DNA of 47,761 nt from Acidobacteriota bacterium (GTDB taxonomy: Bacteria; Acidobacteriota; Terriglobia; Acidiferrales; UBA7541). A program made the position numbers and the translations under genes. This document shows, in pieces, positions 14,884 through 44,295 of this stretch; the first letter of the stretch is position 1, and every line of letters begins with the position of its first letter. The stretch covers positions 1 through 47,761 of the forward strand of contig QHYZ01000094.1 of the NCBI GenBank assembly GCA_003225295.1. The letters run 5' to 3'. The notes under the pieces are model-generated. The model did no database searches. It worked only from the letters and a program-made list of their open reading frames with translations, and was not told the DNA's origin.

Positions 14884-16077
14884 TCAGCGCGTGGCCCAGC
14901 CTTGCGACAGAACGTTGCCGTCAGTGCCCAAGCGAACGCGGTAGGTAAAGGATGCGGGACGGCCAGGACGCACCCGGGGAAACCGCAGATCGGAGATTTC
15001 CACCACCGCTACGTCGCCTTCCTGGTGGAAGCGCGTCACCGGAAATCGCGAGAACCACAAAACCTTCTGCACTTCGGGGAGGCGTTTGGCAACCTCGATG
15101 AACGAATTTGGCGGTGCATCGGGGTAGTAGTGGTGCTCCAGCGCGAGCAATTCCTCATTGCTTACCGCTTGCTGGCTCAGGTCCATTCGTAGTTCGTAGA
15201 CGCCGTGCTCCGACCGCACCAGCCCGTCCCAGTGCCACAGCGATGGGGGCAGCGGCAGCGCTCCGATGGAGTCCACCTGCAAGCGACCCAGTTCAGCGAA
15301 CTTTTGAATGCGCGACAGCGCCTTGTGGTGGGTATACCAAGTGCACGCGACATAGATCACTGCCGCGGCCAAACCAGCGCGATTCCAAGTGTCATGCTGG
15401 ATCTTGCCGCCCCCACCGAGGAGCTCGGGCAGGAAGAAGAGCGCGGCAGAGATAACCATGGCCAGCAGCACGACTCGATCGGAGATCGGCGCGCCGACAA
15501 CTTCACCCATTCTGGCAATCAGAAAAGGGGCCGGCAGGAACACCAGCCACATGCCCATGGCGCGGCGCTTCCATTTCTGGGGGTGGGCATACACCCAGGC
15601 AAGCACTTGCGGCACAAGCAGAAGCGCGGTGAGCGTGAAATCGATGATGAAGATGAGATCCCAAGCGGGGCGCGACCATGCGAGCGGCGACCAGATCATG
15701 GTGCCAAAAGACGTCACCAAGTCGAGCACGATGTGGCTCAGGATGCCAACCGCGTAGATGCCCGCCAGCGCGACAAAGGATGGCGCTTCCCACTTCCGCG
15801 AATTGGCAAACACGCGGGTGATCCCCGCGAGAAGCAAAGCCCACAGGGGAAGCATGACCAAGGAATGGGTGATGCTGCGGTGCCAGGTGATCACCAGGAG
15901 TTTATCGTGAGAGAAAATATCCCGCACTACATCGGAATCCGGAAAGATGGCACCGAGCATCAGCGACCAGGTGATGATACGGCCGCGGTTCATGGGCGGC
16001 GAGGCCAACAGGTCCTGGCCGCGGAAAATAGCTTTTCCGATCAATGCGCCGGCGATGCCGTGGGTGATGGTGTCCAT
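14884..16077 (-). CDS. YdjM-like membrane-bound metal-dependent hydrolase
   Basis: 397 residues. It opens with MDTITHGIAGALIGKAIF, and later IFPDSDVVRD and WHRSITHSLVMLPLWA; these His/Asp motifs and the following helices match the LexA-regulated YdjM family of putative membrane-bound hydrolases. About seven hydrophobic helices fill residues 30-270, followed by a C-terminal soluble region. It lies 37 bases after selD on the same strand and is probably cotranscribed with it. Substrate is unknown. Confidence 0.85.
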   Translation of the reverse strand: MDTITHGIAGALIGKAIFRGQDLLASPPMNRGRIITWSLMLGAIFPDSDVVRDIFSHDKLLVITWHRSITHSLVMLPLWALLLAGITRVFANSRKWEAPSFVALAGIYAVGILSHIVLDLVTSFGTMIWSPLAWSRPAWDLIFIIDFTLTALLLVPQVLAWVYAHPQKWKRRAMGMWLVFLPAPFLIARMGEVVGAPISDRVVLLAMVISAALFFLPELLGGGGKIQHDTWNRAGLAAAVIYVACTWYTHHKALSRIQKFAELGRLQVDSIGALPLPPSLWHWDGLVRSEHGVYELRMDLSQQAVSNEELLALEHHYYPDAPPNSFIEVAKRLPEVQKVLWFSRFPVTRFHQEGDVAVVEISDLRFPRVRPGRPASFTYRVRLGTDGNVLSQGWATR

Positions 16078-16114
16078 TGTTCGCGTCTAGCTGATCGACT
16101 CCGAACCCAACATT

Positions 16115-17194
16115 CTAGCGGACCACTAGGAGCGGATCTGTTTTCCTGAGGACTCTGCCGATGCGGCGCGCCGAGACGCCACGACCATCGAGGGCCGCGG
16201 TGGCAGCCTCGGCAGATTCGGGTGAGATAGCGATCAGCAGGCCGCCGGAGGTCTGCGGATCGAACAGCAGGTCGCGGTACTGCGGTCCAACGCTTTCTCT
16301 GAAAGCCACGCAATCGCCAAAAAAATCGCGGTTGTTCTTTAGGCCGCCCGGGAGAAATCCTGCACCCGCGGCTGCCACGGCCCCGGGAAGATAAAGGATA
16401 GCCGCATGATCGATCTCGAAAGACACGGCTTCGACGCTGCGCTGGGAATCCCCCAGCGCCATTTCCCGCGCGTGGCCCAGCAAAGCGAACCCCGTAACGT
16501 CCGTCACCGCGTGAATCGGAGAGGCCGCTCCCGCCTTTTCTTGTATATCTTCGAGCGCTTTGGCGGCCGTGCAATTCAGTTGGGTCATGGAAGCAATGGC
16601 GGCCTCCAAATCGGCTTCGGCCAGGCGCTCTTTCTTCAGCGCCGTTGCCAGCACGCCGGTTCCGATGGCTTTCGTCAGCAGCAAGACGTCACCCGGGCGC
16701 GCGCCCACGTTTCGCCAAACTCGCTGCGGGTTGATGAGGCCCGTCACCGCGTAGCCAAATTGAATATCGTCATTGCGAATCGAGTGGCCGCCAATGACGG
16801 TGCAGTTTGCTTCCACCATCTTAGAAAGTCCGCCGCGAATGATGGCTTCCAGAATCTGTGCATCCCCCTGGTCGGGGAAGCCCACAATCGAGAGCGCGGA
16901 AACCGGGTGGCCGCCCATGGCGTAAACATCGCTCAAGGCATTGGCTGCCGCAATTTGTCCGAAGGTGTGCGGATCATCAACGATGGGGGTAAAGAAATCG
17001 ACCGTCTGGACCAGCGCCATTTGAGGGCTGAGCAGATACACCCCGGCGTCGTCGTTGGTATCGAAACCAACGAGCACGTTCGGATCAGTGGGCCGCGGCA
17101 AACGGCGCAAAACGGAATCCAGCAACCCTGGACTCAGCTTCGCCGCTCAACCGGCAGCCTTGACCATGGCCGTGAGTTTCACGGATGGGGTCAA
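16115..17194 (-). CDS. selD: Selenide, water dikinase, itself a selenoprotein (TGA = Sec16)
   Basis: 359 codons. SelD makes selenophosphate from selenide and ATP, for selenocysteine tRNA and selenouridine synthesis. A naive reading starts at the TTG 17125 and loses the active site. The same frame continues upstream through one TGA (17147-17149) and gives VKLTAMVKAAG-U-AAKLSPG, where Sec16 occupies the place of catalytic Cys17 and Lys19 that of Lys20 in E. coli SelD. Further marks are VGFDTNDDAGVYLL, VDFFTPIVDDPHTFGQIAA, SDVYAMGGHPVSAL and FDPQTSGGLLIA. Start taken as TTG 17194 (GAGG six bases before it); a GTG at 17182 is the alternative. No selA or selB is in the window, but they must exist elsewhere for readthrough. 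Confidence 0.9.
17116..17149 (-). promoter_or_regulatory. Candidate bacterial SECIS element of selD
   Basis: After the UGA (17147-17149) and a 12-base spacer, AGTCCAG (17128-17134) pairs with CTGGATT (17116-17122), seven pairs including one G-U, around a loop GGTTG (17123-17127). Distance from UGA and a G/U-containing apical loop fit the bacterial SECIS, which SelB reads inside the coding region. Structure judged by eye. Confidence 0.6.
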
Positions 17195-17310
17195 GTGGCA
17201 CCTCGCTCCTAAAGCCGTTCGATTATAGCCAGGTGTGGCGGTTCGTGCTTGCGCACAACGGCGCTACCCGATACTTGCGCCGCGGATCGAGAAAGTGTTC
17301 TGATTCGCGG

Positions 17311-18042
17311 ATGCCCTGGGATATCTGGGTGATTTTTCTCGCGCTGGGCTTGATTCTGCCGTGGCGCGGCCAACAGCGCATGAAGAAATTGCTGGCCATG
17401 CCACGGGTCAGCACCGTGGAGCGGGTCACGCTTTACGCTTCGACCATGGCCTTTCAATGGTGTGCCGTTGCTTTGGTGGCCTGGCGCGGCTGGGCCGACG
17501 GGTTCACCGCCTCGCAGCTTGGTTTGACGATCCATGACCGCACCCGGATTCTGGTTGTTTCGATGGCCGGCGCCCTGACCATGGCCGCTTTCCAGTGGCT
17601 GAACCTGCAGCGGGTGGGGAGAATTTCCATGGAGGCGCGAGGCCCGGTGCAGGCCCTTGCAGAACGCCTCCTGCCGCAATCTACGGTGGAGTTGTTACCC
17701 TATTTGGCGCTGGCCATTACCGCGGGACTGTGTGAGGAGTTTCTCTATCGTGGGTTCGTAATGGCGGTGCTCGTACGGGTAGGATTACCATCTGGGGCCG
17801 TGTTGCTGATTTCTTCCGTTCTTTTCGGGCTGGCACATAGTTATCAGGGGCGCGGCGGAGTGGTCATGACCCTCTTCGTTGGGCTCATTCTGGGGACCAG
17901 CCGGATGGCCTACGATAGCCTGGTGCCGGCGATCTTCTGGCATGCCGCGGTAGACGTAGTCGCCGGGACGGCCGGACCTCGCTATCTGCTACCCCGCTCT
18001 GCAGCCCCCGCGCGGAAGCCTGGGGCTCTCGAGAAAAGGTGA
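17311..18042 (+). CDS. CPBP-family intramembrane metalloprotease (CAAX-like)
   Basis: 243 residues with six or more transmembrane helices. The Abi/CAAX motif pattern is complete: CEEFLYRGFV (EExxxR), FGLAHSYQG (second-motif His) and FWHAAVDVVAG (third-motif His). These residues form the metal site of the type II CAAX prenyl-endopeptidase family; in bacteria the members cleave unknown membrane peptides. The frame is open to 17185, but ATG 17311 begins the first membrane helix (MPWDIWVIFLALGLIL). It is divergent from selD and ends 15 bases before rsmG, so probably shares a transcript with it. Confidence 0.88.
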   Translation: MPWDIWVIFLALGLILPWRGQQRMKKLLAMPRVSTVERVTLYASTMAFQWCAVALVAWRGWADGFTASQLGLTIHDRTRILVVSMAGALTMAAFQWLNLQRVGRISMEARGPVQALAERLLPQSTVELLPYLALAITAGLCEEFLYRGFVMAVLVRVGLPSGAVLLISSVLFGLAHSYQGRGGVVMTLFVGLILGTSRMAYDSLVPAIFWHAAVDVVAGTAGPRYLLPRSAAPARKPGALEKR

Positions 18043-43881: not shown

Positions 43882-44295
43882 TTCGCCAAGTCCGCGGTTT
43901 CTTCCAGGCCAAACTGGAAGCCTCCTAGCAGCTAGAGCGATTCAGGGGCGTGCAGACAATTGTGACTCCCGAATCAAAGGATCAGCCATAGCGCGGAAGT
44001 ACCACGATAGCGGAAGACACAACTCGTCCCAACGGGCCTCACCCACCCCAAGACTGCAAGGCTCTGGCGGCCCTTCGCAATTGCGGTCGCATCCGGATGC
44101 CGCCTTCCGCTGGTAGGACGGCGTCGGCATCGCAACGTGTTAGATTTCGGAGCTGAACCTTCACGGCCTGCTTCCTTGCTGTCTACGCTTCGCACCCACC
44201 AGTCACCCGGTGAATGGCAAGACTCGTTGGTTCGCCAGATTCCAGGAAATTCTTCCCTCCACTACCTGGCGGTCTCACACCGTGCTCGGGCAGCT
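43882..44295. other. Intergenic region, nothing recognised
   Basis: About 410 bases without a supported gene. Short open frames exist on the minus strand but lack ribosome-binding sites and similarity. No hairpin terminator was noticed. Confidence 0.4.

Follow-up and report, generated by a model that had tools for sequence, protein, structure and literature searches.

The selD gene of the window, the whole stretch of 47,761 nucleotides of acidobacterial DNA analyzed here, very probably encodes a selenocysteine (Sec)-containing selenophosphate synthetase (selenide, water dikinase) of 359 residues in which UGA is decoded as Sec, a reading to which we assign a probability of roughly 97% from sequence comparison. 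The gene occupies 16115..17194 on the minus strand, from a TTG start at 17194 to a stop codon at 16117-16115, and a single in-frame TGA (17149-17147) interrupts its otherwise open frame. With the TGA read through, the N-terminal reading from TTG 17194 in the minus-strand frame is LTPSVKLTAMVKAAG-U-AAKLSPGLLDSV, the predicted Sec being residue 16 from that TTG. A preceding sequence-only reading had carried the frame upstream through one TGA into VKLTAMVKAAG-U-AAKLSPG, and this extension is confirmed.

The selD product matches TIGR00476, a curated SelD equivalog model, at 351.2 bits (cut-off 125) and NF002098 at 319.8 bits (cut-off 299), scores 179.8 bits against NF010705 without reaching its cut-off of 291, and contains the Pfam domains AIRS and AIRS_C. 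Its alignment with PDB 3u0o, which we take to be E. coli SelD, is gapless around the site and places the TGA on residue 17 and a Lys on residue 20 of that protein; the Sec/Cys site and the Lys at +3 are presumably the catalytic residues of SelD. By sequence, this Cys-type SelD and the window SelD belong to the same family and share the Lys at +3, and they differ in the motif, GCGCK in 3u0o and GUAAK in the window SelD: 3u0o has Cys at the Sec site and again two residues later, where the window SelD has Ala.

The default ORF list gives a truncated ORF of 336 aa (16115..17125, minus strand), so that standard calling does shorten the gene as had been suggested; its TTG start at 17125 sits in the loop of the hairpin described below, and the default call consequently loses the catalytic residue. 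Were this listed start the true one and the upstream part untranslated, the product would lack both the Sec/Cys residue and the Lys, and we regard this as extremely improbable. Of 31 acidobacterial TGA rows, only 14 have a start codon at the place of 17125; the codons upstream of the TGA are conserved in frame; the frame of Cys-type relatives runs uninterrupted across this part, the exceptions being L083 and L085/L109, with a stop upstream of the Cys codon; and most congeners have their own TTG with a preceding GAGGT. Specifically, 31 of the 32 same-genus rows covering the site (all but L109) share a TTG at the offset of 17194, GAGGT lies within 18 nt 5′ of the TTG in 29/32, and TATAAT within 65 nt upstream of it in 28/32. 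A sigma-70 scan of window 16000-17400 returned zero sites at its threshold. The stop that breaks the L085/L109 frame (genome G005) perhaps reflects an assembly-error frame change or a decayed N-terminus. On the plus strand, a divergent ORF for an Rce1-like CAAX protease (window 17185-18042) shares, from its listed start, 10 bases with the start of selD, and farther along the window, at 44036-44253 on the minus strand, lies a group II intron D1-D4-6 RNA (RF02005, 67.9 bits).

The site was read in 105 loci, of which 101 cover it and four do not (L034, L049, L064, and L076), and removal of duplicates, many genomes having been fetched twice, left 74 distinct homologues. Fifty of these carry TGA, 24 carry TGC or TGT, and none carries any other codon; all 74 have Gly at −1 and Lys at +3. 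In having either TGA or Cys at exactly this position, the homologues join the 3u0o alignment in upholding the earlier proposal of a TGA at the catalytic Cys position with Lys three residues on. Among 36 genomes of the genus, including the window's own, 20 have a TGA-selD and 12 a Cys codon; the remaining four (G002, G015, G020, and G025) either lack the site or yielded no SelD. A second, divergent SelD with TGA (L130, 42%; contig C56 62489-63520 of G007, near a contig end) accompanies the orthologue L039 in the same genome, and was either acquired or is contamination.

The 11 codons 5′ of the TGA evolve as coding sequence. Across 18 congeneric TGA rows, pair sums of single-base codon differences are 224 synonymous to 0 non-synonymous, compared with 42/224 and 0/266 when the same stretch is read in its other two frames; pair sums count one shared change repeatedly, and the contrast between frames is plain all the same. 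Twelve wider rows give 220 synonymous and 24 non-synonymous differences. The upstream residues are therefore conserved in frame, as the sequence-only reading required. A nonsense mutation or a sequencing error in a Cys-type selD, leaving the gene broken or the base wrong, is suggested by the TGA being one base from TGC or TGT in a frame that is otherwise open, yet we give it next to no credence, given that the identical TGA recurs in 50/74 distinct homologues, drawn from numerous assemblies across several phyla, that coding constraint extends to both sides of the TGA, and that a hairpin goes with the TGA.

In the window gene this predicted bSECIS hairpin spans 17115..17135 on the minus strand (stem GAGTCCAG/CTGGATTC). 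The stem AGTCCAG/CTGGATT begins 12 nt past the TGA and encloses the apical loop GGTTG (17127-17123), exactly where it had first been noticed, and one additional basal G-C pair extends it to eight pairs. The 56-nt strand at 17100-17155 folds at -26.6 kcal/mol (z = -3.07), a value equaled by 1/200 dinucleotide shuffles, and the 51 nt after the TGA stand out from 1000 synonymous-codon redraws that kept the protein and followed the gene's own codon usage (z = -3.0, p = 0.006). As worded in a passage of PMC13188914, the bSECIS rule describes a small apical loop with G in its first two positions and a UGA-loop distance of 16-37 nt; the loop GGUUG, 19 nt from the UGA, agrees with that description.

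Since the codons of the protein themselves hold part of the stem, the contrast between TGA and Cys rows constitutes the fairest test of the hairpin. In the synonymous-redraw folding test, p ≤ 0.05 was obtained in 38 of the 50 distinct TGA rows and in three of the 24 Cys rows (L044, L055, and L098). The 12 TGA rows above this value comprise L092, L097, L100, L102, and L103 from other phyla, L113, L115, L119, L126, and L128 from the same class, and the congeners L042 and L050; some failing rows, and some passing ones, adopt an alternative fold register. This test used 1000 redraws for five rows and 200 for the rest, counted any fold, and applied the window gene's codon usage throughout, a poor fit for distant rows.

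Pairing was also counted along the helix itself, for which 10 of the 50 TGA rows were left out (L092, L097, L100, L101, L102, L103, and L106 from other phyla, and the divergent L127, L128, and L130) and the 40 kept reduce to 31 distinct 54-nt stretches; L092, L100, L127, and L128 fold otherwise in the hairpin stretch. Pairing in these acidobacterial TGA stretches amounts to 87.9% of cells, compared with 83.2% in shuffles (0/500 as high), and slid registers give at most 48.4%. Cells with a double change number 16 versus 6.8 in shuffles (0/500), while neither the pairs with a double change (3 vs. 2.2; 177/500) nor the pair types (8 vs. 7.3; 203/500) rise above shuffles in the same 31 rows. At four of the eight helix pairs a standard pair is missing, in 6, 6, 11, and 7 of the 31 rows. 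By comparison, 13 acidobacterial Cys rows (counted without L125, L129, and other phyla) have 52.9% of cells paired, no better than shuffles. Synonymous-codon identity follows the same division: within the hairpin it reaches 0.774 in the 18 TGA congeners (mean of windows in the rest of the gene, 0.524) and 0.619 in 22 class-wide TGA rows (0.469), and drops to 0.392 in 12 Cys rows (0.441). Eight-codon windows as conserved as the hairpin are found elsewhere in 10/316 cases among the congeners and in 12/348 among the 22 class-wide TGA rows.

The source genome (8,134,361 bases in 385 contigs, completeness 96.12, contamination 1.2) contains the machinery for Sec. It has selA (TIGR00474, 574 bits, cut-off 267.9), selB (TIGR00475, 359 bits, cut-off 242), and one clear gene for tRNA-Sec with anticodon TCA (RF01852, 68.7 bits), which together support the earlier suggestion that the organism makes Sec. 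A second tRNA-Sec candidate, at 47.6 bits just above the Rfam cut-off, is a tRNA-Trp according to ARAGORN, and six further RF01852 matches that were scanned are other tRNAs, the scan having covered all but the five weakest. On its contig (C56, L132), the tRNA-Sec gene (2457-2551) and a gene of the phage-integrase family (PF00589, 1693-2436) are separated by 20 bases, as if selC were an integration site. One SelD was found in the genome at E 1e-20; a separate, intact Cys-type selD was sought in this 96%-complete genome and not found, its other AIRS-domain proteins being ThiL, PurM, and PurL. That UGA is read as an amino acid other than Sec, by a changed code or by near-cognate read-through, is scarcely credible in a genome with both a Sec tRNA and SelB and with Cys as the invariable alternative at the site, and the long genes purL, selB, and selA, open under table 11 with zero internal TGA, argue against a general change of code.

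SelD is not the sole selenoprotein of this genome. Five molybdopterin oxidoreductase matches were obtained. Two of these resemble FdhA and carry a TGA in the Sec motif, which reads NRT-U-HAPSV in one and ARV-U-HGPTV in the other. For SelU/YbbB, the tRNA 2-selenouridine synthase, the 96%-complete genome gave no TIGR03167 match at E 0.001, a search in which one of 14 control genomes scored above the cut-off. With SelU not found and FdhA genes with TGA present, the most likely role of SelD in this organism is to supply the synthesis of Sec.

The distribution of Sec and Cys within the genus was placed on a quick protein tree of 70 rows with SH-aLRT support only, calculated with residue 22 masked and the short rows L052, L106, L107, and L131 left out. 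The Sec/Cys label needs six changes on this tree, four of them forced by starred branches. Twelve Cys rows, including L083, whose genus is unknown, form a starred clade, and L054, also Cys, stands apart from it, joined on a starred branch to L050, which is Sec. This arrangement is most simply read as two changes from Sec to Cys within the genus, the direction being suggested by the outside acidobacterial rows, which are Sec except for L125 and L129. In L054 the codon is TGT, and the A-U pair of the stem at columns 16 and 34 is lost. The apparent presence of two selD genes in G024 was ruled out, a single gene being split across two contig ends.

The genomes with Cys-type SelD have retained Sec decoding. 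All 12 in the genus (G001, G003, G004, G005, G006, G016, G021, G022, G023, G031, G033, and G034) have a selB match, that of G006 being partial and below the cut-off, and tRNA-Sec was detected in 10 of them (not in G016 and G021 at that threshold); among the TGA-SelD genomes of the genus, the corresponding figures are 20/20 for selB and 19/20 for tRNA-Sec (not G029). FdhA was searched for in 12 Cys-SelD genomes, namely eleven of the genus without G001, plus G052, and in four TGA-SelD genomes. A match with TGA was obtained in nine of the former (not in G005, G021, and G023 at E 1e-20) and in three of the latter (not in G035), and the TGA lies in the Sec motif in all 14 FdhA TGA stretches of relatives and in both of the window's own genome. 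The retained selB, in most cases tRNA-Sec, and FdhA with TGA rule out a loss of the Sec machinery in the Cys-SelD genomes. As these genomes keep Sec decoding, mostly with FdhA as its user, Sec in SelD appears to be dispensable for decoding.

The arrangement of the Sec genes varies among relatives. In G060, tRNA-Sec, a divergent Cys-type selD (L129, 44% identical), and selB lie within 5 kb (contig C258 13544-18182), unlike in the window's genome, where tRNA-Sec, selD, and selB are on different contigs. G047 has two selB genes, one of which adjoins the tRNA-Sec gene on the same contig, and in G044, rated 100% complete, selB and tRNA-Sec were found and SelD was not at E 1e-20.

Sec-type SelD is an established bacterial selenoprotein family (Mariotti et al., 2015, PMC4561486; Zhang et al., 2006, PMC1794560). 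According to the relevant passage of PMC4561486, SelD was detected in 26% of a reference set of 223 prokaryotic genomes, and 19% of the SelD genes carry Sec, always at the same position. A passage of PMC1794560 describes 15 changes from Sec to Cys, of which 20% affect SelD and 11 took place in selenoprotein-containing organisms, some with a remnant SECIS, and another credits Acidobacteria with four selenoproteins from three families, unnamed in that passage, and with no selenouridine trait. Likewise, three known selenoproteins are reported for the acidobacterium Occallatibacter riparius in a passage of PMC12013277 that leaves the families unnamed. Sec-type SelD, acidobacterial selenoproteins, and the Sec-to-Cys change in SelD are thus already in print. 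The window selD resembles Sec-type bacterial SelD in its single predicted Sec at the N-terminal catalytic position, in the bSECIS that follows the UGA, in the occurrence of homologues with Cys there, and in the company of selA/selB/selC, with no difference in mechanism. The subdivision 2 lineage goes unnamed in the passages of PMC1794560 and PMC4561486 that deal with Sec-type SelD, the string "Acidobacteri" was not found in the accessible text of PMC5029168, and among the open-licence papers searched none bore a title devoted to SelD from this lineage.

Established knowledge of the pathway suggests how the gene would be expressed. Ribosomes would start at TTG 17194 and, at the UGA (17149-17147), SelB with Sec-tRNA-Sec, held by the hairpin just downstream, would insert Sec at the catalytic position, after which translation would continue to 16115. 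The resulting SelD would convert selenide and ATP to selenophosphate, from which SelA would make Sec-tRNA-Sec. Because SelA needs selenophosphate from SelD for this step, the output of SelD would be required for its own full-length synthesis as well as for that of the two FdhA proteins.

One could imagine that such feedback makes the Sec in SelD a selenium gauge: at low selenium, translation would stop at the UGA and the pathway would shut down, and the Sec-to-Cys changes in the genus would represent repeated losses of that control in Sec-decoding cells. A variant of this idea holds that the start codon in the loop might yield a short, inactive SelD in some lineages, the window's included. We consider the gauge unlikely, and the presence of the loop start codon in only 14 of the 31 rows makes it less likely than it would otherwise be. 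Irrespective of such control, the reading of selD as encoding a Sec-containing enzyme matters for annotation: the default ORF drops the N-terminus and the catalytic residue of the very enzyme that this genome would need in order to make Sec. Beyond annotation, part of the interest, albeit mild, lies in the Sec/Cys pairs within the genus; closely related Sec- and Cys-type SelD partners, such as L050 and L054, occur there in genomes with selB retained and form a natural set for asking what benefit Sec confers.
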